Below are positions 1,586 to 64,000 of a stretch of 64,000 nucleotides of DNA, piece after piece. Source of the DNA: Halorubrum sp. DM2 (GTDB lineage: Archaea > Halobacteriota > Halobacteria > Halobacteriales > Haloferacaceae). The DNA lies in assembly GCF_901686465.1 (NCBI RefSeq), contig NZ_LR594487.1:1609650-1673649 (forward strand), read 5' to 3'. A program made the translations under genes and the position numbers. The notes beneath the pieces were generated by a model. That model worked only from the letters and a program-made list of their open reading frames with translations, ran no database searches and had not been told where the DNA came from. Numbering within the stretch: the stretch's first letter is position 1; the number at the start of each line of letters is the position of its first letter.

Positions 1586-4537
1586 TCAGTCGTCGTCGGC
1601 CACCGCGGGCTTCCGGCGGTCGTCGCGGGGGCCTTCGAGGTCGACCTTCGGGAGCATGTCCCGGAGGTAGCGCCCGGTGTGCGACTCCTCGACGCGAGCG
1701 ACCGCCTCGGGCGTGCCGCTGGCGACGAGTTCGCCGCCGCCGTCGCCGCCCTCGGGGCCGAGGTCGATCACGTGGTCGGCGTTCTTCACGAGGTCGAGTT
1801 CGTGTTCGATGACGACCACGGTGTTGCCCGCGTCGACGAGGCGGTGGAGCACGTCGATCAGCTTGCGCTCGTCCGCCTTGTGGAGGCCCGTCGTCGGCTC
1901 GTCGAGCAGGTACAGCGTGTCGCCGGTCGCGCGCTTGCCCAGCTCCTCGGCGAGTTTCACGCGCTGCGCCTCGCCGCCCGAGAGCGTCGTCGAGGGCTGG
2001 CCGAGCTCCATGTAGCCGAGCCCGACGTCTTTCAGCAGCTTGAGGCGGCGTTCGAGGCCGCGGTGGCTCTCGAAGAAGTCGTACGCCTCCGCGACGCTCA
2101 TGTCGAGCACGTCGGCGATGGTCGCCCCCTTGTACTCGACGTCGAGCGTCTCGTCGTTGTAGCGCGCGCCGCCGCACTCCTCGCAGGGGACGTACACGTC
2201 GGAGAGGAAGTTCATCTCGATCTTGACGGTCCCCTGCCCGCCGCACTCCTCGCAGCGCCCGCCCTTCACGTTGAACGAGAACCGCCCCTTCTCGTAGCCG
2301 CGGCGCTTCGACAGCTTCGTCTCCGCGAACAGCTCGCGGACGTGGTCGAACACGTCGGTGTACGTGGCGGGGTTCGAGCGGGGCGTCCGCCCGATGGGGC
2401 TCTGGTCGATGAGCCGCACCGTCTCGACCTCGTCGAGGCCCTCGATCGCGTCGTGGTCGCCGGGGTCGACCGAGGTGTTGTCGTTCATCTCGCGGGCGAG
2501 CCCCTTGTACAGGATGTCGTTGACGAGCGTCGACTTCCCGGAGCCGGAGACGCCGGTGACGGTCGTCAGCGTGCCGAGCGGGATCGGCACGTCGAGGTCC
2601 TTCAGGTTGTGCTGGCGGGCCCCGCTCACCACGAGTTCGCCCTCGGACTCGCGGCGCTCGTCGGGCACCGGGATCGACTCGCGGCCCGAGAGGTAGTCGG
2701 CGGTCACCGACTCGTCGGCCTCGACCACCTCGGCGAAGTCGCCCTGCGCGACGATCTCGCCGCCGCGCTTGCCCGGCCCCGGTCCCATGTCGATGATCTC
2801 GTCGGCGCGACGCATCGTCTCCTCGTCGTGTTCGACGACAATGAGGGTGTTGCCCAGATCGCGGAGCCCTTCGAGGGTGTTCAAGAGTCGGTCGTTGTCC
2901 CGCTGGTGGAGCCCGATGGAGGGCTCGTCTAAGACGTACAACACGCCGACCAGCCCGGAGCCGACCTGCGTCGCGAGCCGGATGCGCTGGCTCTCGCCGC
3001 CGGAGAGGGTCGAGGCCTCGCGGTCGAGCGTGAGATACTCCAAGCCGACCTCCTCCATGAAGCCGAGCCGCGCCCGGATCTCCTTTAAGATCTCCTCGGC
3101 GATCGTCGTCTCGCGCTCGTTCAGCTCCGACTCCATCCCCTCGAAGTGCGCTCGGGCGTCGGCGATCGACAGCTCGTTGACCGCCGTGATCGACGTGCCC
3201 GCGACGAGGACGTGCCGCGACTGCTCCTTGAGTCGCGTCCCCTCGCACTCGGGGCAGGTCGTCACGGCCATATACTCCTCGATGTGGTCGCGGGCGCGCT
3301 CGGAGTCGGTCTCGACGTGGCGGCGCTCTAAGTTCGGGATGACGCCCTCGAACCGCTCCGTCTTCTCGCGCGTGCCGTTCTTCGTGGTCCACTCGAAGTG
3401 GACGAGGTCGTCGGTGCCGTAGAGGAACTGCCGCCGAATCTTCTCGTCCAGCTCCTCGAAAGGGGTGTCGAGGTCGACGCCGAAGTGGTCGGCGACGTTG
3501 TCGAGCTGTCGCGAGTAGTAGGTGCGGTCGTAGCTCCACGGTTCGAACACGTGTTTGAGCGGTTTCGATGGATCCTCGATCACGAGGTCCTCGTCGACCT
3601 CCTTCGTCGAGCCGATCCCCTCGCACTCGGGACAGGCCCCGTACGGGCTGTTGAAGGAGAACGACCGCGTCTCGATCGCGGAGAACTGGACGTCGGAGTT
3701 GGGGTTGCCGAGCTCCTCGGAGAACTCCACGACGAGCCGGTCGTCGGCCTCGGCGTCGGCCGCGAGCGATCCGGTCGAGCGCGCGTTCGACGCGAACGGC
3801 ACGTCCTCCGGCGGGTCGGGGACGATCAGCTTGAGGGCCCCGTCGGCCTCCTCCAGCGCGGTCTCGACGGAGTCCGTGATCCGCGAGCGGGCGTCGGGGC
3901 TCACCGTGACCCGGTCGACGATCACGTCGATCGTGTGGTCGTAGTTCTCGTCCAAATCGGGGTCGTCCAGCGTCAGGTCGACCGATTCGTCGTCGACCTC
4001 GACGCGGCTGTACCCGTCGCTCACCAGCTCCTCGAACAGCTCCTCGAAGGCCCCCTTCTGGTCGCGGACGACTGGGGCGGCCACCTTCGCCCGCGTGCCC
4101 TCGGGGAGTTCGAGGATCTGGTTCACCATGTCCTGTGCGGACTGCTCGCCGACCTCCTCGCCGGTGACGGGGTCGTACTGGGTGCCGATCCGGGCGTACA
4201 GGAGGCGGAGGTAGTCGTGGAGTTCGGTGACGGTGCCGACCGTCGACCGGGGGTTGTTCGCGGCGTTCTTCTGGTCGATGGAGATCGCCGGCGAGAGCCC
4301 CTCGACGGACTCCACCTGCGGTTTGTCCATCTGTCCGAGGAAGTTGCGGGCGTACGCGGACAGCGATTCGATGTACCGGCGCTGTCCCTCGGCGTAGACG
4401 GTGTCGAACGCGAGCGACGACTTCCCCGACCCGGACAGCCCGGTGACGACGGTGAACTCCTCGCGCGGGATCCGGACGTCGAGGTCCTTGAGGTTGTGTT
4501 CCTCAGCGCCGCGGACCTCGATGTAGTCCTTGCTCAT
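1586..4537 (-). CDS. uvrA: Excinuclease ABC subunit A (UvrA)
   Basis: The 983-residue product is a full-length UvrA, the damage-recognition ATPase of nucleotide excision repair. It has two ABC modules, with Walker A motifs near residue 35 (GLSGSGKSS) and near 665 (GVSGSGKST), two signature motifs (LSGGESQR and LSGGEAQR), and zinc-binding Cys clusters including CPECEG and CEECGG. UvrA loads UvrB on damaged DNA; uvrB lies 30 kb away at 35.0 kb, so the two are not one operon. Haloarchaea commonly carry this bacterial-type system. The ATG start gives the normal N-terminus. Confidence 0.97.
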
Positions 4538-51817: not shown

Positions 51818-51890
51818 GGGCGCGTAGCTCAGCGGACAGAGCACTTGGTTCCGGACCAAGATGCCGCGGGTTCAAATCCCGTCGCGCCCG
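51818..51890 (+). tRNA. tRNA-Arg (anticodon CCG)
   Basis: The 73-base gene folds as a cloverleaf. The acceptor arm pairs GGGCGCG with CGCGCCC, the anticodon arm is CTTGG-TTCCGGA-CCAAG with anticodon CCG, and the T-arm contains GGGTTCAAATCCC. It has discriminator G and no encoded CCA. It reads CGG codons. It marks the left edge of a lower-GC accessory region, and tRNA 3' ends are common integration targets, but no duplicated 3' end was found inside the window. Confidence 0.97.
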
Positions 51891-52206
51891 TTCCAATTCA
51901 TAACGATTCAAATCCGCTAGACTGCGGTACGTTCCTTATAAAGAACGACCGTGATCTGTGAGTGATTTCGTTATGTTACGGAACGCGGGTCGAAGCCTTC
52001 CTGCGATTCGCGTACATCCAAACGGGGGTGAAAGGTATTGAATTGGTCGTTTTGATTCCCACGTGAGAATTTAAGAGTAGAGGATTGACCTATTTACCTA
52101 TCTGTGTCGACTCCCTCTGTAGGCTGACTTGATATACGACACATAGGACCTCCTCATGCTTTACCAACTCCTTTATCACCAGTCCTGCCAGAGAGACTGA
52201 TGAAAA
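51891..52206. other. AT-rich gap after tRNA-Arg
   Basis: No gene is seen. The composition falls sharply just after the tRNA. CTTATAAAG lies near 51936, and CTTTATCACC at 52171-52180 is a good TATA element about 27-30 bases before the methyltransferase ATG. CGATTCAAATCCGC at 51904-51917 loosely echoes the tRNA T-arm. Confidence 0.5.
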
Positions 52207-53754
52207 ATGGCCGACGATCTTGACTCTCGTTTTCATATCTACCAACATGACTCGCGAGAGTTGAAATCGAAATTAGAGGAGGAGTTCGACAACGTCGATG
52301 GGCTCGTCGATACGATCATCACGTCACCTCCCTACGCCGATCTTGTCGATTACGGAGATCATGATGAACAGGTTGGCAAGCAGAGCTACGAGGACTTTCT
52401 CGACGACATTCGCGAAATCTACAAACAGTGTTACGAAATTGCCTCTGACGACTGTACGCTCTGGATCGTCACTGACACATACAAAATCGATGGCCGCGTT
52501 GTTCGTTTGCCGTTCGACATCGCCGATGAACTGGAGAACTTGCCGAACTACGAAACCTGCCTCGACGAGGACTGTGAGGGATGCCTCCGTCGCGATCGCG
52601 GCGATGGTACGTTGATATGTAAGCGGTGTGGCGAGGTCTATGATCCGCTTCCGGAGTCATGGCGTATGGAAGACAACATCATCTGGGATAAGCTTCGCAC
52701 GCGTCCGTGGCATCAGAAAGGCCGTCTACGCAACGTGTACGAGCACGTGACGATGTTTTCAAAGACGGATGATTTCAAATACGACAAGGACGCGATCCGG
52801 ATCACCGACACCGACGAATTCGAACAGTGGTGGGTGAACTACCCCGAACGATACAGTCCAAGGGGGATGGTCCCAAGCAACGTGTGGAAATTCCCGATCC
52901 CCAAACAGGGTCAGTGGGGCCCCAAAGTCAGCTACCATCCGAGTCCATTCCCAGAAAATCTCGTAGAACGGATCGTTCACCTCGCTTCCGAACCTGGTGA
53001 TGTCGTATTCGATCCCTTCGCCGGTATCGGTACGACACTTGCTATCGCAGAAGCCCTCGATCGAAAACCGCTCGGATTTGAGTTGAACGAGGAATATATC
53101 GAGTATTATGAAGAACACGTTCGTCCCACTGCTCTTCATGAGGTAGGGACGGTACAATCAACGCTCCGCGACGAACAGGTAGAACTCGCACGGAAGATCT
53201 ACACTCTTCGGATTCACAAGTACGCATATGAGCTGTACAAGGAGTTCATGAATTCCGACCAGCACAATATACTCGAGGGTCAGATCGAATTCATTCACAC
53301 CGCCAGCGATCCGTCGCAATTCGACGATGCTGATGACCCAGAAGCGGAGTTGCTCTACGTATGTGAATCTGAATCTGACTTTGAGAACGTTGATATCAAG
53401 GCCGCGAAGGAGGGGATGTTGTCAGAAGACAAGGGCTCTGGCGACTACTACGGTGTCGAGTTTGATGCCGAATTCATTACTGTCGACCGCTATCTCGACG
53501 AACGTCTTCCAAGACGTGATGTCAACTTAGAGGATGAGTACCATCTGTACGTTGACGGCGCTCACAACTGGGCGGAGCACAGTTTCACGCCCGACGATTG
53601 GGAAGCACTTGTCGAAGAAGGTGAGTGGAAGCGATACTGGTCGAAGAGCAGACCCCCGCTAATCTCGAATCTACTGATTCAGGCTGAAAACCCGATGGAT
53701 GAACGTAATCGGAATATCGAGGGACACCAGGCCGACTTTAGCAGTTTCAATTAG
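52207..53754 (+). CDS. Beta-class DNA methyltransferase with zinc insert and extra C-terminal domain
   Basis: The 515-residue protein has catalytic motif IV TSPPY (39-43) ahead of the SAM-binding motif DPFAGIG (269-275), the order of beta-class amino-methyltransferases that make N4-methylcytosine or N6-methyladenine. Between them lies a Cys cluster (C118, C123, C126, C138, C141) that may bind zinc, then a probable target-recognition region. Residues about 305-515 form an added domain, also found at the end of the GHKL fusion at 55.0-58.0 kb. The target site is unknown. GC is lower than in core genes. The start follows a TATA box. Confidence 0.9.
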   Translation: MADDLDSRFHIYQHDSRELKSKLEEEFDNVDGLVDTIITSPPYADLVDYGDHDEQVGKQSYEDFLDDIREIYKQCYEIASDDCTLWIVTDTYKIDGRVVRLPFDIADELENLPNYETCLDEDCEGCLRRDRGDGTLICKRCGEVYDPLPESWRMEDNIIWDKLRTRPWHQKGRLRNVYEHVTMFSKTDDFKYDKDAIRITDTDEFEQWWVNYPERYSPRGMVPSNVWKFPIPKQGQWGPKVSYHPSPFPENLVERIVHLASEPGDVVFDPFAGIGTTLAIAEALDRKPLGFELNEEYIEYYEEHVRPTALHEVGTVQSTLRDEQVELARKIYTLRIHKYAYELYKEFMNSDQHNILEGQIEFIHTASDPSQFDDADDPEAELLYVCESESDFENVDIKAAKEGMLSEDKGSGDYYGVEFDAEFITVDRYLDERLPRRDVNLEDEYHLYVDGAHNWAEHSFTPDDWEALVEEGEWKRYWSKSRPPLISNLLIQAENPMDERNRNIEGHQADFSSFN

Positions 53755-53755
53755 C

Positions 53756-53968
53756 CTACTGAGACTCCTCTCCCCGCGCCTCCCACCCTTTGTGGAAGTG
53801 AGCCATATTTACTGCCGACTCGAACTTTGCCCCCGAAGCGGTGTGGTGTAGCACAGGCTCGTCATGCTTCATCTCGATTGTCCCCTTCTCAAGCTGCTGT
53901 TCGACGATGAGCATTGCCTTCTCCTCGTGGATGTCCTGTGTCAGGAACTGATCTTCGGTGCCCGCCAT
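53756..53968 (-). CDS. Small protein of unknown function
   Basis: About 70 residues from ATG 53968 (MAGTEDQFLTQD), mildly acidic, with a helical middle (EEKAMLIVEQQLEKG) and a His-containing C-terminal half. It converges on the methyltransferase gene with one base between the stops. No family is recognised, and I cannot tell whether it belongs with the methylation genes. Confidence 0.5.
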   Translation of the reverse strand: MAGTEDQFLTQDIHEEKAMLIVEQQLEKGTIEMKHDEPVLHHTASGAKFESAVNMAHFHKGWEARGEESQ

Positions 53969-54121
53969 TATACGATTAGTGAGCATGAATGGTCTTAATC
54001 GTTATCTCCAGCTAGCTGATCAACTCATTCGCTAAAAGACCCTGAGATCCTGTAGTAGTCGATAACTCAATTCCCATCAGAGTCCTTGGGTTTATGTCCT
54101 AACCTAAAAAAATGGCAATAG

Positions 54122-54988
54122 ATGGCTGAGCCGATTCTCAAGTGGGTTGGAGGGAAGCGCCAACTCCTTCAGGAGCTTCACTCACGATTCCCAATTTCGT
54201 ATGAAAAATATCATGAGCCGTTTATTGGCGGAGGTGCAGTCTTCTTCGACCTCGAACCTTCCGAGGGCACAATAAACGATCTCAATCGACGACTGATTAG
54301 CTTCTACGAAGTTATCCGCGATCATCCCGAGCAACTAATCGAAGAGAATCACCGCCACGAGTACGAAGAGGAGTACTATTATGACGCTCGTGACCGGTTC
54401 AATGAACTCCACAAGCTCGACGAGCGGTCCCTCGAACTGCGAGTAGAAGAGGCGAGCCTGATGCTCTATCTCAATCGAACCGGCTACAACGGACTGTACC
54501 GAGAGAACCAATCCGGGGGATTCAACGTTCCGTTCGGTCGGCATACGAATCCGGACTTCATCCGTGAGCGACAAGTTCGGAAAGCGAACGACATACTCGA
54601 CGACATTGAGATTTATAATCGGGATTTTGACTATGTTGTCGACGACGCTGACGAAGGGGATCTCGTATACTTCGATCCCCCTTACGAACCTGTATCCCAG
54701 ACGGCAGATTTCACCCAGTACCAGTCAGACGGGTTCGATAAAGACGATCAGCGTCGACTACGTGATCTAGCCGTCGAACTTAGTCAGAACGGTGTGTACG
54801 TCGTCTTATCGAACTCTCCGCCAGTCGGCGAACTCTATGAAGGCGTTTCCGAATTCACGATTGACGTCGTCGATGCTACGAGAATGGTGAATAGTGATGC
54901 AGATAATCGTGACGACGTAGCGGAAGTGATCATCACGAACGTACCGGCAGACCGCCAGCGACAACAGAATCTAGGTAATTATAGCTAA
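54122..54988 (+). CDS. dam: Dam-type DNA adenine methyltransferase (D12 class)
   Basis: The 288-residue enzyme opens with PILKWVGGKRQLL and FIGGGAVFFDL, the SAM-binding signature of the D12 class. It carries the catalytic DPPY motif (VYFDPPYEPVSQTADFTQY) near residue 185. D12 enzymes methylate adenine N6, often in GATC, but the target here is not shown. No matching endonuclease gene lies beside it. A third methylation gene in 6 kb, it supports the view of a modification/defence island. It could also be a solitary viral-type methylase. Confidence 0.9.
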   Translation: MAEPILKWVGGKRQLLQELHSRFPISYEKYHEPFIGGGAVFFDLEPSEGTINDLNRRLISFYEVIRDHPEQLIEENHRHEYEEEYYYDARDRFNELHKLDERSLELRVEEASLMLYLNRTGYNGLYRENQSGGFNVPFGRHTNPDFIRERQVRKANDILDDIEIYNRDFDYVVDDADEGDLVYFDPPYEPVSQTADFTQYQSDGFDKDDQRRLRDLAVELSQNGVYVVLSNSPPVGELYEGVSEFTIDVVDATRMVNSDADNRDDVAEVIITNVPADRQRQQNLGNYS

Positions 54989-55047
54989 GTCGTAACTGTA
55001 GAATCGTCACGCAGAGCTGGTGAAGACCGTTTTATGACACTCTCTGA

Positions 55048-57957
55048 TTAGTTTGTCCGAATTATGTGCCGATAGTGCTCTCCACTAGATTTGTTTAATT
55101 GTATTTCGTGGTCGCCGGACAAGCCTCTTGAAACAGTTTCCATAGAATGCTTCGGATGGTTTACTTCAACACCGACATTTGAGACGATTGGAGGGATCTC
55201 GTTATCAGAGTAACGTTCTGTCCACTGATCGGTACCCTCATTCACTTCTCGCCAGTCACTATACGAAATGTCCTCCGAGTACACGTAGTGCCGTCCGTCT
55301 TCGTAGATGAAGAGATCTTCTGGCAGATGTGTATAGGTTTCATTAGCTATCTCACTAATGAATTCCTCCGCTGTCATGACTAACGTACGGGCACGAATTC
55401 CAAAGCCAGAGCACGGTTGGATCGTGGTGACCTCTTCGGCAATCTCATCGTAATCAAGTGCCTGTCGAGCGGTCGTCTCATTATCTACGAGAAGCACGAG
55501 ATCGATCTCTCCGTGAATGTCGTCCTCAACGGACTGATATCCAAGCTCCCGACTTACGAGGAAGGCGGTATGTACATCTAACTGCGATGGGTTTGAGAGG
55601 CCGAGTTCGCTCGCCATCGTTCGAAGCAGTTCCCGTGCATACTTCGTTTGACGCAGTCCGCAAATAATCCTATCTAGGTCTTCTTGTGATGCGACCTGAT
55701 CTTCCTCTTCATGATGTTCCTCGAGATACTCTTTCAGGTCAGGATAGGCTTCAGAGTATTTTTTATTCAATTCAACACCGATTGGTCTTCTGTCCATCAG
55801 CTCTGCCTGTCCTAGAACGACCCCCGAGCCAGCGAAGGGGTCCAGTACGACATCATCTCTCTCCGTAGAGAGTGTGAGAATTCGCTCAATTAGTTTTGGA
55901 GGGAACGCTGCAGGGTGATCGAACACGTCCACTTCTCCAGTGAATGATCCCCGTGTTGGCGGATCGAACTCCCATATGTTTTCAGGTAGCTTTCCGAGCG
56001 GGTGGTAGCGCTCAGGGAAATCTGCCCACCATTTCTTGAATTGAGCAGGATCTGACTCTCGAATGCGATCCATCTGTAGCTTATAATCCGGACTTTTGCT
56101 AAAACAGAGAATATACTCGAAGACATTCCGTAGTCTCCCTTCTTTTGTATACGGGAGCGCACGGTTCTTATTCCAAACAACGATGTCTTGGAGAATCCAC
56201 GACTCGTCGTTATTTGTCGTGTGACCACAGTGGGGACACATTGTCTGTCGACTATCTAATTCATCGATTCCTCTCAGTATCGTATTCTCACAGTTCGAGC
56301 ATTCTAATCCTTGATCGAGATTCTGGCACACACGTGCGATGTCGAATGGGAGCTGAACGATTTCGCGGTTCCGACGGAAGGTATTCACAACGACCCAGAG
56401 GGAACCGTCATCTCTGGTGAGCGAGTAAACCTCAGAGAAGAGTTCTTGGAGTTCTTGTAGATATTCAACGTATGTTCCATGTTGTCCTATTTCATCTTCC
56501 TCACTCGAACCGTACTCTTTGAGGTCATAGTACGGTGGAGATGTGATTGTCGTATCCACGAACCCCTCATCCTCGTCTAGCGTGTCTGCTGTATAGTCTC
56601 TTATCGCTGGAACGATTGACCTCGCATCACCGTGGTGAAGACCAAATATATCTGAGGTTGGATCAAACGTAGATATGTTTTCGATTTCCTCTGACGACTC
56701 TTCTTCCTCCTGAGTTTGAGTGGTTGTCGACGCCCCACCCGTCGAGACTCGCTTACCGTACTCTCTACCCTCCGGAAGCAATTCTTCATCGGAGAGTTCC
56801 TTTCGTATTTCACGCCAGAGTTCGCTGTTCGTATCTAGTCGTGTCTTCTTATTGTCCGTCGGCACTTCATCTGTGTCGCCGATCGGGAATATCTGGAGGG
56901 TGCCTCCGAAGTAATTATACTGGTTATTCCGCGTCAGATCAAACAGATCCTCAAATACGGAAGTCATCAGCACCCGACCATTTGCGTAGATATCGACACC
57001 TTGTCTGTTCTGACTCGGCCGATATCTATATCTGAATTTGCCACTCTGAGTGAGCAGATCTGGGTGTTCTTTCTCTGCCCATTTGGTCATCGAATCGATG
57101 TCCAGCGTACCAGCTTCATACCGCACTTGGTATCGGTCTCCGCGAGGAGTAGACACACGAAATTCGTGAGACTTCAGTACTGTGTCATCGGTGTAAGAAG
57201 GGCTGATCGGCGGTACCTCAAACGTTCCTTGTTCATTCGAGGGTAAGTCATGATAATGTACAACAATCTGATTATCATCACGAGCGGAGAGTAAGCGCCG
57301 AAACACGACACCGAGCCGCTCACGTACATACTGGACTTTCGTTCCAAGTGAGTCAGCCGATGGCCAGACATCGGCATCAAACTGTGAACGCGCACATGTC
57401 GCCTGGACGCGTGTCCCGTGGTCAGATTCTAATAGTGAATCGACATCGCTTGGGATTCCAACCTTCCAGTCACGTTCTTTAGCATTGACTATTGGAAGGT
57501 CACCAGTTATCGGACCGTCAACACGCAGACATTCACTTTCAGCTGTCTGAGTGACTAGTGAAAACCAGTGAGGGTCATCTCCAAGGCCACGTTGTTTGAG
57601 GGATTCTTCGAACCAAGCTAAACTCGCTTTCAGTCCCCATCCGACGTTATTGAGAATCCCCTCTGATATCTCTTTATTCCCCGTTCGAAAAACATGATTT
57701 TGGAGGTCTTCTCTCGTTATACCAGGGCCATTATCTGATATATATGTGGTTACTGTTTCTTCCCCGCGAACGAACGAAATAGAAATATTGACTCGCTTAT
57801 CAGCGTCATCGAAGTAGCCTTCTCCATCTACGACCGCAGCCACCGAGTTATCAATGAGCTCCTGAGTGGCATCCAGAAAGTTTTCGTGCTGCTTCGCCAT
57901 TCCGGAAGCTAGCATTTCAAGTTCAACTGCGGATTCACATGTCTCGCTATTCATCAT
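55048..57957 (-). CDS. MORC/Hsp90-like GHKL ATPase fused to a beta-class DNA methyltransferase
   Basis: This 969-residue protein joins two enzymes. Residues 1-230 form a GHKL ATPase: N box ELIDNSVAAV (E33, N37), DNGPG (75-79) and NVGWGLKAS (104-112), closest in style to MORC/Hsp90 proteins. Residues about 240-400 look like the following S5-type transducer. An acidic Ser/Glu hinge (410-430) leads to a methyltransferase with TSPPY (472-476), a zinc-like cluster (C553, C556, C574, C577) and DPFAGSG (706-712). Residues about 755-969 match the end of the 52.2 kb methyltransferase. Prokaryotic MORC-like ATPases are known near restriction-modification genes; fusion to the methylase itself is striking. 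Confidence 0.87.
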   Translation of the reverse strand: MMNSETCESAVELEMLASGMAKQHENFLDATQELIDNSVAAVVDGEGYFDDADKRVNISISFVRGEETVTTYISDNGPGITREDLQNHVFRTGNKEISEGILNNVGWGLKASLAWFEESLKQRGLGDDPHWFSLVTQTAESECLRVDGPITGDLPIVNAKERDWKVGIPSDVDSLLESDHGTRVQATCARSQFDADVWPSADSLGTKVQYVRERLGVVFRRLLSARDDNQIVVHYHDLPSNEQGTFEVPPISPSYTDDTVLKSHEFRVSTPRGDRYQVRYEAGTLDIDSMTKWAEKEHPDLLTQSGKFRYRYRPSQNRQGVDIYANGRVLMTSVFEDLFDLTRNNQYNYFGGTLQIFPIGDTDEVPTDNKKTRLDTNSELWREIRKELSDEELLPEGREYGKRVSTGGASTTTQTQEEEESSEEIENISTFDPTSDIFGLHHGDARSIVPAIRDYTADTLDEDEGFVDTTITSPPYYDLKEYGSSEEDEIGQHGTYVEYLQELQELFSEVYSLTRDDGSLWVVVNTFRRNREIVQLPFDIARVCQNLDQGLECSNCENTILRGIDELDSRQTMCPHCGHTTNNDESWILQDIVVWNKNRALPYTKEGRLRNVFEYILCFSKSPDYKLQMDRIRESDPAQFKKWWADFPERYHPLGKLPENIWEFDPPTRGSFTGEVDVFDHPAAFPPKLIERILTLSTERDDVVLDPFAGSGVVLGQAELMDRRPIGVELNKKYSEAYPDLKEYLEEHHEEEDQVASQEDLDRIICGLRQTKYARELLRTMASELGLSNPSQLDVHTAFLVSRELGYQSVEDDIHGEIDLVLLVDNETTARQALDYDEIAEEVTTIQPCSGFGIRARTLVMTAEEFISEIANETYTHLPEDLFIYEDGRHYVYSEDISYSDWREVNEGTDQWTERYSDNEIPPIVSNVGVEVNHPKHSMETVSRGLSGDHEIQLNKSSGEHYRHIIRTN

Positions 57958-58105
57958 AACCCTCGAGATTAGAACGAATACGGCCTTGCATGGCTACAAA
58001 GATAGGTACTACTCTTTACCGGTTTAACTTATGGATCTAGGTTAGATTAGTGAGCTCTTACAAACCAACTTAGACGTGTGAACTGAGTGTGATATTATTC
58101 AAAGA

Positions 58106-58495
58106 TCACTCAGCATCTTTGACATATCGGTGATATTCAAAGTAATTTTGTTTTTTGATATCTTCAAACATAATCTCGATACCTCCTTCAAGGTACCCTT
58201 GCATGTGTTCTTTGAGTTTCTCCGGAGATGCGTTTTTGTGACGACGTTCAATTATTGTTCGGAGAACGCGGTCTTGATCTAATGATTCCATTTTTAATGC
58301 TTTACTTGTACTCTCAGGCTGGTTTTGTCGTTTCTCTTTGATTCCCACTGCGATTGCAAGGTTCGCTATTTGAGTGTTCTCTACTTTCTCTGCGTCATTA
58401 TTCTCTAAGGTTTCGTTGATCGACTTTGACACCTTGTCGAACTTTTCAGTAGTAACTTGTAGAGTCTGCGCACCGGATATCTTATCGAATTTCAT
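58106..58495 (-). CDS. 129-residue protein at the end of the DndD-like operon
   Basis: A charged, mostly helical protein beginning MKFDKISGAQTLQ. Its central QIANLAIAVGIKEK could be a short DNA-binding or packing helix. It overlaps the zinc-hook ATPase gene by one base. The position directly after a DndD-like gene and the size recall DndE, a small protein that follows DndD in phosphorothioation operons, but I cannot show homology. The base composition is AT-rich like the rest of the operon. Confidence 0.7.
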   Translation of the reverse strand: MKFDKISGAQTLQVTTEKFDKVSKSINETLENNDAEKVENTQIANLAIAVGIKEKRQNQPESTSKALKMESLDQDRVLRTIIERRHKNASPEKLKEHMQGYLEGGIEIMFEDIKKQNYFEYHRYVKDAE

Positions 58496-60441
58496 TATTT
58501 GACCCTCTCTAGTTTCGAATCCTTTCCATCTGGTTTGATCCGATAGTGTGCTCCAATCTCTTCATTAACTGCATCACCGAGATCGCGTAGCTCAGAATCA
58601 GTTACAAGTAGCAATAGAGGGTCCTCCAGATTAGAAAAGAACTCTCCCTGTGCTTGACTGTTTGTTAGATCAAGACGACCAGCTACTGTATCAAATACTA
58701 TCGTTGAAGAGTAACGAGCATATTTATTCAATCCAAATATGAAACTCAAAGCCGTTAATTGGGATTCTCCAGCAGAGGGTTCATGATTAGCCATGTCTTT
58801 TGTTTCACCATCTGATTCGATGAGCTGAAGGACGTATGAATCTTCATCGCTAGGGTCCCCCCGGAAATCAAGTCCTTGGTACCGTTGGTCCATAAAGTCA
58901 GATTGTGCGACCTGCTCGAAAACTTGATTCATTTCTGACTTTATCTTTTCCCGTTTGTCGCGGACGTGAATATTTCGAATTGTTTTTAATTTTTCAATGG
59001 CTGTCTCTCCTGCGTCTATCTTACTGTTTACCTTATCCAGCTCTTGATTAGATGCATTTTCCTCTCTCTTACTTTCTAATTTTTTAATTTCTTGCTCTTT
59101 TTCTCTGATTGTTTCTTCGCGATTATCTATCTCTTCTTGTAGGCTATCTATCGAGTCTTCAAGATCATTAATGTTGTTTTCTAGTGTGTCTTGTTCACTA
59201 TCATCTGGAACACCTCCCAAGTCACCGAGCAAATCCTTACGTTCTGTCTGATTATCTTTAATTTCTTCGTTTATTCTGTCTATCTCTGTTTGGTGATCCA
59301 CCGGATAATTTTGAGGGAAATTGACTGAATCAAGCCTGTCACGCATTTCTCGCAATTCAACTAGCTTTTCTGTTAGCTTTTCAGATTGCTTTTTATCGTG
59401 ATCTCTGACACTGTGTTCTTCGAGACTTTCTATTTCTTCAGTCCCACAGATTGGACATTTACCCTGCTTCGCTTCTTCAGCTAGATCATTAATAATTTCA
59501 TCCCGCTCTATATCAGAGAGACGACCTTCATATTCCTCAATTTCCTCTATGATCTCTTGTTTAATCTGCTTGAGATCCTCAGATAAAATTTGATATCTTA
59601 GCTTTTTCCAAGATATATTTAATTTAGATAGTTCTTTGACCTTGTCAGTTTGTAGGCTTGTTGTATCAGACTCTAACTCATTTATCCGATCAATTGCCTC
59701 TTTGTTTACACTCTCCAATTCTTTTCTATTCTTTTTTAATGCGGTCTTGTTATTCTGTATCTCATCTCTGTCTTCCTTGTTCCGCTGTCGGAGTTGTCGG
59801 ATATCTTCTCGAAGGTTAGAAATCTCATCGAGAATTTCATCTCGTTCTTTAGCCTCCTCTTCAATTCGGTTGCGTCGAGGGATGAGTCGGTCTTCTAGTA
59901 AGTCTCCTAAATCCTTCTGTGAATTTATAATAGTCCTATGCTTAAGGACAGTCTCAATTTCTCTCTTTACTTTTTGACCCGCATCTTCCGCTATTAATTC
60001 TTGTATTCTCTCCCCGTCAAGGAAAAAGAAGCGTTTCAATTCCTCAGGTAATATCTCTTCAATCTGATCTTGTGCATCTTCGCCAGAATACGTTTCTGTA
60101 TCTCCAATTAGTGTTAGGTCTTCATGAGCACGTTGTTGGTTCTGGTTAAACCGACCGATTTCTCGTATTAGTGTATAATTTCGAGAGCCTTCTTTAAATT
60201 TGATTTTGACCGACATCTCTTCCTCACCAGCCTGCTTTGCGCGCTCATTCCAGTGTTTGGTGTAGTTGCTTTTCGGACCTGCACCACCATACAGGCCCCA
60301 TTGAATTGCTGTGTGTAAACTCGTCTTGCCTCCTCCTTGATCTCCTTCAATAATGTGGATTGAACCATCTCGATCGGTTAGATCAATTTGAGACTCCCGA
60401 TATGGTCGAAAGTTAACAACCTCAATAGAGAGTAGCTTCAT
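58495..60441 (-). CDS. DndD-like SMC/Rad50-type ATPase with zinc hook
   Basis: The 648-residue protein has an ABC-ATPase head split by a long coiled coil. Walker A is GDQGGGKT (33-40), FFFLDGERI (138-146) is a mark of the DndD group, a zinc-hook CPIC (C329, C332) sits between the coils (about 185-325 and 345-490), the signature is SAGES (556-560), and Walker B is IVFDT (581-585). Such ATPases act on DNA ends or couple sensing to nucleases. dndA, dndB and dndC are absent here. It overlaps its neighbours by 4 and 1 bases. Codon use is very AT-rich for this genome. Confidence 0.87.
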   Translation of the reverse strand: MKLLSIEVVNFRPYRESQIDLTDRDGSIHIIEGDQGGGKTSLHTAIQWGLYGGAGPKSNYTKHWNERAKQAGEEEMSVKIKFKEGSRNYTLIREIGRFNQNQQRAHEDLTLIGDTETYSGEDAQDQIEEILPEELKRFFFLDGERIQELIAEDAGQKVKREIETVLKHRTIINSQKDLGDLLEDRLIPRRNRIEEEAKERDEILDEISNLREDIRQLRQRNKEDRDEIQNNKTALKKNRKELESVNKEAIDRINELESDTTSLQTDKVKELSKLNISWKKLRYQILSEDLKQIKQEIIEEIEEYEGRLSDIERDEIINDLAEEAKQGKCPICGTEEIESLEEHSVRDHDKKQSEKLTEKLVELREMRDRLDSVNFPQNYPVDHQTEIDRINEEIKDNQTERKDLLGDLGGVPDDSEQDTLENNINDLEDSIDSLQEEIDNREETIREKEQEIKKLESKREENASNQELDKVNSKIDAGETAIEKLKTIRNIHVRDKREKIKSEMNQVFEQVAQSDFMDQRYQGLDFRGDPSDEDSYVLQLIESDGETKDMANHEPSAGESQLTALSFIFGLNKYARYSSTIVFDTVAGRLDLTNSQAQGEFFSNLEDPLLLLVTDSELRDLGDAVNEEIGAHYRIKPDGKDSKLERVK

Positions 60442-60620
60442 TTTTTGTCCTCAAGATAGTCATCAAGATATCCCTCCAGCGCTTTTTTTTTGCCCTTGCG
60501 ATGAGTCTGATATTGTCGTTTGTCTTCCCAGTCCAATATATTGCGAATTAACCGCTTCATATGTGAGTCCTCAACTTCGTCTTCTAGGATATCTTCGATA
60601 TCCGGGTCAAGTCCTGTCAT
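60438..60620 (-). CDS. 60-residue protein between helicase and ATPase genes
   Basis: A small charged protein (MTGLDPDIEDILEDEV at the start, Lys-rich middle, acidic end) with no known domain. It overlaps the helicase gene by 4 bases and the ATPase gene by 4 bases, which makes it a real, translationally coupled operon member rather than a chance frame. It may be a small subunit or adaptor; that is a guess from position. Confidence 0.65.
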   Translation of the reverse strand: MTGLDPDIEDILEDEVEDSHMKRLIRNILDWEDKRQYQTHRKGKKKALEGYLDDYLEDKK

Positions 60621-62713
60621 TCAAGATCGTACTGTGTCATAGCCCGAGCGATTCTTAAAATGTAGGGGTCATTATCCATTCTATTCGTCGCATCCGAGTT
60701 CATCATACGAAGTCTCTCTAGCTCACGCTCAATTAACGACAACTCTGCTTGGGTAAGGTCTGCATCACCCGATTTAATGCTCTCCAACTCTGCTGGCAGC
60801 GTAATAAAATCATGGAGCTGTGCAGGGGAATCACTTTGCGCCTCACGCAGAATCCGACCGCGGCGTTGTATCGCCTCTCTTTCTGTTGTTGAACTTGTTA
60901 CTAGTATTGCCGAGTCGCATTCTGGAACATCGATCCCTTCAGTTAAACAATCAATAGAAACTAATATTTCTATATCTCCTTTCTCAAATAGGTTTAGCAA
61001 ATTCTCCTTATCATTCTTAGAGAGTTTTCCTAAGAAGATAGACGCAGTCTTTGTCGTATGATCGTCAATAGCATTTATTACAGCTTTCGTGTGGTCTTCT
61101 GTATTACAGTACACCAAAGTTCGAGTTCCGATATTCTCAATAATTGACCGTGTGAGACTGAGTTTTCCTTCACATTCTTTGACAATCCGTGCTCTCTCCA
61201 TTATTTCTACTTTCAGGTCGGGATGACGATCTGAGACTTCTATAACCGGCTGATCCTCATATGATTTATAAGTATTATATAAGTTGGAAATCTCGGTTGA
61301 ATGGCTGTCATATTCTTGTCGTTCTCGGGAAGATAGCACAACTGGGTGAATATGATATTCATATTCACTCAACACTCCGTACTTTTCAATTGCATCTTGA
61401 ATACTAACTTCGTGTATTTCACTACCAAAGTATTCTACAATCGTATCATCCCCAATATCATCTCGGAAGGGGGTCGCACTAAGAGCAACTCGGCCAAGAT
61501 CTGCCTGTAATTTTGGAAAGATTGTACGTCGGAGACTTGACCCTAGATTATGTACTTCATCAGCAATAATCCCAACCTGTTCTGGGTCACACTCGCTATT
61601 AATACGTTCAATAGCATCTTTCATAGTAGTTGGATGCATAGTTGTTACAACAAACAGCGGTGCTGACCGATTAGTGAATAACTGATTATGAAGATCTTCT
61701 CTCCAGTTAACGTCACCTAAGCATCTGATTATATTGCTTTTTGGAAAGAAGCGTCTGATATTGTCCCCATCAACCCACTGATTGACAAGATCTCTCGTTG
61801 GAGCGAAGATGACGATGACATCATCGGACTCAACAACACGTTGCATTGCCAGTAAAGAGGTCCATGTTTTTCCCGTTCCTGTAGCGTGATCAAGGATTAT
61901 CCGATTATTGTTATTCAAAAATCTCCGAATCGCGTCTTTTTGATAAGGACGCAGAGTAATATCCTCTTGACCCTTGTTTTGTTCATTACTAGAGATGATA
62001 TCGTCCCAGTCAGGTTCTGCTGTTGGAGCAGTTTCGAGCAAGTCTTGTTCTAGTGCTTCTGGAAAATCAAAAACAGATGATCTAGGATCCTCATCATTCC
62101 ATAATCGGTTAAATTCGTCAATTTGCTCTTGTAGGCGGGTTTTTTCATCCCACTCTTCGCCCTCCATCTCTATCCAGCTTCGAAATAGGCTGAAACTCTC
62201 TCGATTCTGTTTTAATGCTTTGAATGATTCATTAGGGGATCCAGACACCCCAACAATATTTCCTTCATCATCTCCGAAAATTGCAACTTTTTGATGCCAC
62301 TCTGCTTCTTGTTTTGTCTGTAATCTCCCTAAGTCATCAGTTACAACGCCGATTTTGATATCGAGAATTTCTTCTGCAACCAACCACGCAAGTGCTTCCA
62401 TAACTTCATCCCGATTCCCGTTCTTTAATTCCTCCCACTCTATGTGATTTTTAATAACATCGCCGGATCGACCTTGTTCTATCGCTTCAATATCATGTTC
62501 ATAGAGTTCGATACCTGGCATTAGGCGGATTGTACCACCGTTCTCAATAAATTCTGGTAGTCCCTCAGAGAACAACGCTAATACCGATGCTGAAAAGCTA
62601 CCTGTAATGCGATCATATGAAGTTGAATGTTTTAGAGCAGGTATGAAAAATTCATTAAGCAGATCTTCGTGACCGGCATAGTACCCTTTCCAAGGATAAT
62701 CCCGTAACGACAT
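60617..62713 (-). CDS. PLD-nuclease/SF2-helicase fusion
   Basis: The 698-residue protein begins with a phospholipase-D-like nuclease domain (about 10-200). Its HxK motif is at H140-K142 and GSPN at 158-161. A full SF2 helicase follows: ATGTGKT (277-283), DEVH (385-388), SATPF (412-416), LTEGIDVPECD and IQRRGRILRE. PLD nucleases cut DNA without metal, so the protein could both translocate and cleave. It is the first gene of the four-gene operon and has a TATA box about 28 bases before its ATG. Similar helicase-nuclease fusions occur in restriction and defence loci; the substrate here is unknown. Confidence 0.88.
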   Translation of the reverse strand: MSLRDYPWKGYYAGHEDLLNEFFIPALKHSTSYDRITGSFSASVLALFSEGLPEFIENGGTIRLMPGIELYEHDIEAIEQGRSGDVIKNHIEWEELKNGNRDEVMEALAWLVAEEILDIKIGVVTDDLGRLQTKQEAEWHQKVAIFGDDEGNIVGVSGSPNESFKALKQNRESFSLFRSWIEMEGEEWDEKTRLQEQIDEFNRLWNDEDPRSSVFDFPEALEQDLLETAPTAEPDWDDIISSNEQNKGQEDITLRPYQKDAIRRFLNNNNRIILDHATGTGKTWTSLLAMQRVVESDDVIVIFAPTRDLVNQWVDGDNIRRFFPKSNIIRCLGDVNWREDLHNQLFTNRSAPLFVVTTMHPTTMKDAIERINSECDPEQVGIIADEVHNLGSSLRRTIFPKLQADLGRVALSATPFRDDIGDDTIVEYFGSEIHEVSIQDAIEKYGVLSEYEYHIHPVVLSSRERQEYDSHSTEISNLYNTYKSYEDQPVIEVSDRHPDLKVEIMERARIVKECEGKLSLTRSIIENIGTRTLVYCNTEDHTKAVINAIDDHTTKTASIFLGKLSKNDKENLLNLFEKGDIEILVSIDCLTEGIDVPECDSAILVTSSTTEREAIQRRGRILREAQSDSPAQLHDFITLPAELESIKSGDADLTQAELSLIERELERLRMMNSDATNRMDNDPYILRIARAMTQYDLE

Positions 62714-62737
62714 CTAGGTGGAACGAACATCCGGAAC

Positions 62738-62746
62738 AGTATAGAG
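62738..62746 (-). promoter_or_regulatory. TATA box of the PLD-helicase operon
   Basis: The minus strand reads CTCTATACTG about 28 bases before the helicase ATG at 62713. This spacing suggests a leaderless polycistronic mRNA for the four overlapping genes. It is the only clear promoter of the operon. Confidence 0.5.
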
Positions 62747-62815
62747 ATTGTCCCGTTTTAGTAACATACCAGTATGATCGGATCACTCTAGCACTGAACC
62801 CACCCAAATTTAAGA

Positions 62816-63058
62816 CTACATCTCAGTGTTAGTCTCACCCGGATACCACCAAACAGTACTTCTCGCACCCGCCTTCTTCGACTGGAGAACGCCCTGCTCC
62901 TCTAATGAGCGGAGGCGATTATACACCGCCCTGCGCCCGATAGGGAGAGATTCTGCAACCTCATCAGCCATCAGTACAGGATCTTCTGCATTCACGAACA
63001 CCGTCAGTATCTCCTCATCCGATACCGTCGGTTTGCGACCGGGGCCATCGCTACCCAT
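62816..63058 (-). CDS. Winged-helix transcriptional regulator
   Basis: The 80-residue protein is little more than one winged helix: an ADEVAESLPIGRRAVYNRLRSLEEQG stretch, described here by its ends ADEVAES at about residue 31 and LEEQG at about 55, followed by a short wing. The ATG at 63058 starts MGSDGPGRK. It lies between the defence-like operon, read in the same direction, and a Cas4-like gene read away from it. It may control either one. Its composition is closer to the host than that of the operon. Confidence 0.75.
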   Translation of the reverse strand: MGSDGPGRKPTVSDEEILTVFVNAEDPVLMADEVAESLPIGRRAVYNRLRSLEEQGVLQSKKAGARSTVWWYPGETNTEM

Positions 63059-63143
63059 TCACCTCAAAACGCGAGATGTGAGGGGCTAAATCTATTTATT
63101 CCACCAACGGAATTGTTATATTGCTTCCCACCTAGGAAGTAGA

Positions 63144-64000
63144 GTGAAACACCGATCACACTCTCGTAACGGCGATCGCACACTGACTTCTCCCGTGGGA
63201 TCAGGGAGACCTGCCACGGCACTCACTGCGATCACTACCACGGACTTTCAGGAGTGGCGACGGGCGTCGAACGCCCGTGAGAACGTTGAGGAAGGCCATG
63301 CGTACTACAACGACCCGAGTCCGGTGCCTCCGCCCGAGAAGCATACACCGAGCAGTCTGTTGCAGTGCCACCGAAAGCTCGTTTATCGGAAGGAGAACGC
63401 GCCGGCAGAGACCGAGATGGCCCAGGGCATTCTGTGGGTCGGCACGCGTTTCGAGGAGGATGTCGTACTACCGTACCTGCGCGACGCCGTCGACGATGAC
63501 GGCCTGCTTGTCACGAACTCCCTGTACGTCGACTTCGAAATCGAGACGGACGCCGGCGCACTCGTGGTTAAGGGGTCAACTGACCCTGTCGTCGTTGACG
63601 ACAACGGCGTGCCAATTCTCCCGACTGAAGTGAAGACGAAGGGTTCGTTGGAGTACCTCGACGAACCGAACGAGCACCACAAGGCACAGCTACACGCCTA
63701 CATGGTCGGCCTCTCGCAGAAGTACGACGTCGACGTGAAACGCGGATGTCTCATCTACGGGGGTCGCGACTCGTTCGATCTCAAGGTGTTCGATGTCGAG
63801 TTCGACACGGAATTCTGGCAAGAGACGGTCGTCAGCTGGGCGACCGAACACACAGAGTACCGCCTTGACGGCGAGCTCCCGCCGGCAACCCCCCGATTCG
63901 GATGGGAATGTGATTTCTGCTCGTACCGTGAACGGTGCGGGAAGAGCAACAGACCGGTATCGGACCGGGGGTCCCGTGGATTCCTTCCCCTCATGGAATA
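63144..64000 (+). CDS. Cas4-like PD-(D/E)XK nuclease (3' end outside window)
   Basis: The frame is open from GTG 63144 to the right edge, at least 285 residues. It has a RecB/Cas4-type core: GSTDPVVV holds the Asp, PTEVKTKGS the E-x-K, and KAQLHAYM the downstream Gln motif. One Cys in LLQCHRKLVY and three in CDFCSYRERC could bind an iron-sulfur cluster, as in Cas4. A GTTATATT box lies about 28 bases before the GTG, so a leaderless start there is likely; GTG 63195 is an alternative. No CRISPR array or cas genes are seen. Its role could be in defence or DNA-end processing. Confidence 0.8.
   Translation, partial: MKHRSHSRNGDRTLTSPVGSGRPATALTAITTTDFQEWRRASNARENVEEGHAYYNDPSPVPPPEKHTPSSLLQCHRKLVYRKENAPAETEMAQGILWVGTRFEEDVVLPYLRDAVDDDGLLVTNSLYVDFEIETDAGALVVKGSTDPVVVDDNGVPILPTEVKTKGSLEYLDEPNEHHKAQLHAYMVGLSQKYDVDVKRGCLIYGGRDSFDLKVFDVEFDTEFWQETVVSWATEHTEYRLDGELPPATPRFGWECDFCSYRERCGKSNRPVSDRGSRGFLPLME

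Follow-up and report, generated by a model that had tools for sequence, protein, structure and literature searches.

A GHKL-S5 ATPase module joined to a DNA methyltransferase at a DndC-less PbeABCD locus of haloarchaea

The locus and its genes

The window analyzed here, a stretch of 64,000 nucleotides from Halorubrum sp. DM2, contains a minus-strand open reading frame at 55048-57957 that runs from an ATG at 57957 to a stop codon ending at 55048, with zero internal stops, and encodes a protein of 969 aa. Immediately upstream, and in the same orientation, lies a pbeABCD operon of overlapping genes; 148 bp separate pbeD from the 969-aa frame. Two further methyltransferase genes, MT2 and Dam, are found on the opposite strand. 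The genes are the following:

52207..53754, plus strand: partner methyltransferase MT2, 515 aa, homologue of the C-terminal half of the fusion
54122..54988, plus strand: Dam-family adenine methyltransferase, 288 aa (TIGR00571, 4e-83)
55048..57957, minus strand: GHKL-S5-methyltransferase fusion protein, 969 aa, kept at full length in nine other haloarchaea
58106..58495, minus strand: pbeD candidate (DndE-like), 129 aa, assigned mainly by position; 1-bp overlap with pbeC
58495..60441, minus strand: pbeC, CxC-type ABC ATPase (DndD-like; PADLOC PbeC, 3e-166; CPIC hook at 329)
60438..60620, minus strand: pbeB candidate, small protein of 60 aa, assigned by position and size
60617..62713, minus strand: pbeA, HKD nuclease-like domain and SF2 helicase (PADLOC PbeA, 2e-245)

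PbeA carries the HxK...GSxN motif at 140 as well as GTGKT and DEVH, and the pbeB candidate overlaps pbeA and pbeC by 4 bp each. The pbeD candidate is 33% identical to the product of L061 13233-13646, itself a weak PbeD match, and no direct match to the PADLOC profiles was found for the pbeB or pbeD candidate. A preliminary description of the fusion gene had overlooked this context; the PbeABCD locus with its partner methyltransferase and Dam is more telling on function than the pair of domains. The locus (window positions 51818-64000 and beyond) begins next to a tRNA-Arg gene, with the G+C content passing from about 0.70 to 0.40, and open reading frames resembling a serine recombinase and a tyrosine recombinase are located just beyond the window end. 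An attachment repeat of the tRNA-Arg was sought at the locus and was not found.

Domain organization and fold of the fusion protein

The domains of the fusion protein, all encoded on the minus strand, are arranged as follows:

57388..57930: GHKL ATPase domain, residues 10-190 (HATPase_c_3, invariant motifs, structure model)
56773..57387: S5-type transducer domain, residues 191-395 (alignment and structure model)
56650..56772: variable acidic linker, residues 396-436 (dN/dS, low model confidence)
55678..56649: beta-class DNA methyltransferase domain, residues 437-760 (N6_N4_Mtase, E 2e-40; predicted N4-cytosine)
56227..56301: four-cysteine zinc-ribbon insert in the methyltransferase, C553/C556/C574/C577, unchanged across the nine fusions aligned
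55051..55677: C-terminal domain, residues 761-969, common to the fusion and MT2 (BLASTP alignment to residue 948)

The preliminary description had proposed that a complete GHKL ATPase and a complete beta-class methyltransferase share one chain of 969 residues, and this was confirmed. All the motifs that it quoted were located, namely ELIDN (E33/N37), DNGPG at 75-79, NVGWGLKA at 104-111, TSPPY at 472-476 and DPFAGSG at 706-712, and Pfam matches were obtained for HATPase_c_3 at residues 29-116 (E 8e-7, above the family cut-off) and N6_N4_Mtase at residues 467-737 (E 2e-40). In the alignment of nine fusions the GHKL motifs E33/D36/N37, D75xGxG79, G106xG108xK110 and GT181-182 are invariant, as are the S5 stretches GVDIYANGRVL at 320-330 and PTDNKK at 366-371. 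Motif IV (TSPPY) lies ahead of motif I (DPFAGSG), which is the beta-class order, and the (S/D)PPY and FxGxG signatures of this class (N6_N4_Mtase) are both present. Residues 438-948 align with MT2 nearly throughout (BLASTP, 33% identity, E 1e-77), so that the fusion is in essence an MT2-type enzyme with a GHKL-S5 module of about 400 residues in front.

The AlphaFold2 model of the full chain was of low confidence (pLDDT 55), and a GHKL-only model was therefore built for residues 1-411 from 12 sequences (pLDDT 77, pTM 0.81). Structural comparison with MORC and Hsp90, as suggested in the preliminary description, gave matches to the ATPase modules of Hsp90 and MORC3, and also to those of SMCHD1, MutL and topoisomerase VI-B. 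The alignments span roughly 420-530 columns, with E values from 1e-12 to 1e-7 and TM scores of 0.4-0.48, which identifies the N-terminal half as a GHKL+S5 module and bears out the proposed GHKL fold. A profile of the GHKL alignment matched only Hsp90 among PDB sequences, and weakly (E 0.008), so the fold is settled by structure. The full-chain model matched N4-cytosine and CcrM methyltransferases, the best match being 8s9m, an N4-cytosine methyltransferase, which together with the SPPY motif suggests N4-cytosine as the methylation target.

The MORC label applied to this protein stood up less well. The four ATP-binding motifs are present in the GHKL domain and are followed by an S5 domain, but the MORC S5 signature GhXhhpXXRhl (Iyer et al., PMC2292703) is matched by GVDIYANGRVL at 10/11 positions, with alanine at the polar position in 10/10 fusions, and strict MORC membership is thus not supported. 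Moreover, Hsp90, SMCHD1, MutL and topoisomerase VI match the model as much as MORC3, and the unfused proteins closest to the fusion are of the GHKL-S5 kind, encoded next to McrB-like genes. The protein is better termed paraMORC-like, as it combines a GHKL-S5 region and a C-terminal extension of its own with linked helicase, nuclease and methylase genes.

Conservation of the fusion

Of the 390 further genomes sampled in the class, 7 encode full-length homologues, and additional full-length fusions are encoded by Halosimplex pelagicum and by a plasmid of Halococcus dombrowskii, where the protein is annotated merely as 'DNA methyltransferase'. Carriers include Halorubrum halodurans, H. aidingense, H. 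xinjiangense and Halobaculum rubrum. Together with the window there are ten fusions, 48-87% identical and all retaining the catalytic motifs, and an alignment of nine of them shows no variation at the catalytic residues of either half. Among close relatives dN/dS was 0.03-0.08 for GHKL and S5, 0.04-0.09 for the methyltransferase and C-terminal domain, and 0.12-0.20 for the linker. Both halves are under purifying selection, i.e. two constrained machines with a flexible tether between them.

These data also bear on the concern, raised in the preliminary description, that a frameshift or assembly error might have joined two genes. The source genome is a single 3.45-Mb contig, and the same domain order, which that description had proposed to search for, recurs in nine other full-length fusions. 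With a frame-continuous fusion repeated in ten independent assemblies and strong purifying selection on both halves, the chance that we are dealing with a sequencing or assembly artefact, or with an inactive chance fusion, is negligible. The fusion is real and, judged by selection, functional.

The survey for fusions covered 391 genomes of the class and, for bacteria, plasmids. The plasmid search returned two haloarchaeal fusions and otherwise just distant unfused GHKL proteins of lactobacilli. No GHKL-containing relative was found in viral contigs and none in phage records, and two weak matches from outside the class proved to be histidine kinases.

Unfused GHKL relatives

The nearest unfused relatives (L040 4957-6960 and L039 5708-7750) are 37-41% identical to the fusion; in them GHKL-S5 is followed by an acidic linker of considerable length and then by a short C-terminal domain. 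They adjoin an AAA_5 (McrB-like) gene and a further open reading frame, which in L039 encodes a sequence with a PD...ExK-like pattern. In L039 the fusion and the unfused GHKL gene are separated by a few kb. In more distant bacterial relatives, e.g. that of L048, the terminal stretch shows a D...ECK pattern and gives just a weak PDDEXK profile match (E 0.13). It may be that a nuclease-like tail was swapped for a methyltransferase in the fusion.

The surroundings of these relatives lend some weight to the main rival of the reading that we favor below. According to this rival, the GHKL half would be a restriction-side component that licenses attack by DNA looping or signaling, while the methyltransferase half would mainly provide PbeA/PbeC with target recognition, like a type III Mod subunit. 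The McrB-like AAA+ protein and the second candidate-nuclease frame beside the unfused relatives, as well as the tail of the L048 protein, are in line with such a role. However, an intact methyltransferase under purifying selection occupies the place of the relatives' nuclease-like tail, and the Pbe system that has been tested relied on a DNA mark and not on contact with Dnd proteins (PMC6459918). We thus regard a restriction-side role as unlikely, if still the most serious competitor.

Exchange of Pbe genes beside the methyltransferases

PbeA, PbeC, the small gene after PbeC and MT2 are present in 10/10 fusion loci and Dam in 8/10, and in all ten genomes or plasmids PbeA and PbeC lie within the same ~20 kb as the fusion. 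In phylogenetic trees the methyltransferase of the fusion and MT2 branch identically across the Halorubrum, Halobaculum and Halococcus rows, and most nodes are strongly supported, indicating that the fusion and MT2 were inherited together. The Pbe genes behave differently. Between the window and L032 the fusion is 87% identical, compared to just 30% for PbeA and 25% for PbeC, with the gene order unchanged, and the G+C content steps from 48% to 40-42% at the fusion/pbe boundary (48-51% for the module vs 40-43% for Pbe). In L032 a 130-bp relic of the 5' end of the fusion gene (79% identity) is located upstream of pbeA at 3077-3206 and is likely a scar of module exchange. By these sequence comparisons, the restriction module (Pbe) has been swapped beside a constant modification module.

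That one methyltransferase module accompanies two Pbe clades, whose PbeA proteins are about 30% identical, is a point against a fixed molecular partnership and hence against the fusion being the modification arm of Pbe. The 148-bp gap ahead of the fusion gene and the opposite orientation of MT2 and Dam also count against that reading, as they make a shared transcript with pbeABCD less certain. Swapping of Pbe under constant methyltransferases would fit a restriction-side GHKL if the methyltransferases carry the specificity. The same exchange, together with the step in G+C content, could also be read as the mark of an orphan or stand-alone epigenetic set of methyltransferases, tied to Pbe by nothing more than a common defence island. 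Such independence seems improbable, given that PbeA and PbeC accompany every one of the ten fusions and that fusion and DndC exclude each other (see below).

An HNH_repeat protein (PF18780) is encoded between pbeD and the fusion gene in L032 (8298-9920), L034, L035 and L036 (6897-8450, with five PF18780 copies) and is missing from the window. An uncharacterised gene pair of ~330 and ~390 aa recurs beside pbeD in L038 (12538-14711), L046 (17620-19786), L040 (13101-15365), L033 (20686-22816) and L055. At L034 16690-20496 a pentapeptide-repeat/ion-channel-like protein is paired with a 553-aa GHKL protein (MzaB-like match), which is also found in L035 and, by a solo methyltransferase, in L041.

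Pbe loci in 391 haloarchaeal genomes

Of the 391 genomes surveyed in the class, 44 carry near-full-length PbeA, 18 DndC and 8 the fusion; the PbeA count comprises near-full-length matches plus G148, whose PbeA match is helicase-only but adjoins PbeC. PbeA was present in 8/8 fusion genomes, as against 44/391 overall (p 1.4e-8), and in 18/18 DndC genomes, while DndC and the fusion occurred together in none (p 0.009); these counts refer to genomes and not to independent events. DndC (TIGR03183) was not found in the source genome, nor in ten genomes checked one by one. A pairing of the window's Pbe with phosphorothioation (DndCDEA) was ruled out, as the genome is without DndC.

In the 18 PbeA genomes that have neither DndC nor the fusion, most loci read have another methyltransferase nearby, either a SPPY enzyme of 390-590 aa that follows pbeD or an Eco57I-type enzyme that precedes pbeA. 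In some genomes of the survey it is a single methyltransferase with no GHKL protein, so that GHKL appears dispensable for methylation pairing in general. A HATPase_c_3 protein lies at most 10 kb from PbeA, by coordinates, in 16/26 DndC-less vs 1/18 DndC genomes (p 1.6e-4). These proteins represent several kinds of GHKL, one of them a double-HATPase form that was confirmed at two loci. The Eco57I-type methyltransferase was observed at the Pbe loci L061, L062, L064 and L067 (the type being confirmed in L061 and L062), and the companion protein of 754-763 aa there has HATPase_c_3 at its N terminus and a HEF_HK-like HATPase_c at its C terminus. HATPase_c_3 proteins of 824-876 aa, in which no further domain was recognised, were also seen near pbeA in L057 (3490-6018), L065 (11478-14108) and L069 (6334-8808).

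Proposed function

We propose, with a probability of roughly 0.6, that the fusion, MT2 and usually Dam supply the modification function of a PbeABCD system paired with methylation, in which a GHKL clamp restricts the marking. The parts of this proposal differ in strength: from the sequence comparisons the fusion probably belongs to the modification arm of Pbe, whereas gating of methylation by ATP through the GHKL module, argued from analogy, is more tentative and somewhat less likely than not. The three enzymes would mark host DNA, with N4-methylcytosine as the predicted product, and PbeABCD would spare marked DNA and attack unmarked invader DNA. The 'self' mark for Pbe is probably supplied by the fusion instead of by sulfur, the methyl group taking the role that DndCDEA phosphorothioation has in other Pbe systems. 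The presence of two homologous methyltransferases suggests either that each enzyme serves one strand of an asymmetric site or that there are two sites.

Clamp closure on ATP-bound dimerisation is known from the biochemistry of MutL, Hsp90 and MORC. In a similar manner, ATP most likely causes the GHKL-S5 module to dimerise and close round DNA, in which case the closed clamp would keep a pair of methyltransferase domains on the duplex. It could thereby limit methylation to particular DNA states, e.g. hemimethylated host DNA. Invading DNA would then be marked slowly and not rapidly turned 'self'. That such an ATP-operated clamp gates the methyltransferase, restricts self-marking to certain DNA states and is a general device of methylation-paired Pbe, in which fused as well as unfused GHKL proteins recur, is a bolder and rather doubtful extension of this scheme. 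The fusion may reveal how cells keep their own methylase from labelling incoming virus DNA as 'self'.

Comparison with known systems

PbeABCD blocks the virus SNJ1 when paired with DndCDEA phosphorothioation, with no visible cleavage of viral DNA, and its activity hinged on the DNA mark (PMC6459918). In the revised assignment of Burroughs, Aravind and colleagues, PbeA is an HKD-helicase, PbeC a CxC ABC ATPase and PbeD a DndE protein; these authors also drew attention to methylases of the C5 and N4-cytosine types in the neighbourhood of CxC ABC ATPase/DndE systems (PMC10853773). The present locus shares with DndCDEA-PbeABCD the order pbeA, small gene, pbeC, small DndE-like gene and its place in a haloarchaeal defence island, but it is without DndC and has the GHKL fusion, MT2 and Dam in place of phosphorothioation. 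Methylation pairing of Pbe/CxC systems has been predicted, by Xiong et al. (PMC6459918) as well as by Burroughs and Aravind (PMC10853773), and the occurrence of GHKL ATPases near restriction genes is established. Term searches of the text of these two papers found no mention of a GHKL protein. Likewise, no description of a GHKL-S5-methyltransferase fusion, of a module of two methyltransferases plus Dam, or of GHKL enrichment at methylation-paired Pbe loci was found in the literature searched. The loci described here would provide concrete, testable cases of Pbe paired with base methylation rather than phosphorothioation, formerly just proposed, in species near culturable halophiles.

The paraMORC families are GHKL-S5 proteins of restriction-modification loci (PMC2292703). 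The fusion resembles them in its N-terminal GHKL domain with intact motifs, its S5 domain, its own C-terminal extension and its linkage to an SF2 helicase, an HKD domain and methylases. It differs in that the extensions in PMC2292703 are RE-fold, TIR or unknown domains, whereas that of the fusion is a methyltransferase; a methyltransferase fusion is not mentioned in the text of that paper. In the HEF_HK/Response_reg_2 relatives of paraMORC that lie beside C5 methylases, GHKL is also tied to DNA methylases, but unlike in the fusion the genes are separate and the second domain is histidine-kinase-like (PMC8011034). The double-HATPase proteins of the Eco57I-type Pbe loci resemble these relatives.

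With eukaryotic MORC, SMCHD1, Hsp90 and MutL the fusion has in common the GHKL+S5 fold, the E/N and Mg-site motifs and the conserved S5 lysine, but those proteins are without a methyltransferase and the MORC signature of the fusion is incomplete (10/11). The covalent link between a MORC/MutL-type ATPase and a methyltransferase makes the role of prokaryotic MORC-like ATPases in restriction systems directly testable. Finally, in fungal DNMT5 an SNF2 ATPase motor is fused to a DNA methyltransferase, which is eukaryotic and forms 5mC, and ATP controls which DNA is methylated. The likeness is an analogy of mechanism only, and if the clamp does gate methylation by ATP, the haloarchaeal fusion would be a prokaryotic counterpart, in logic, of DNMT5.
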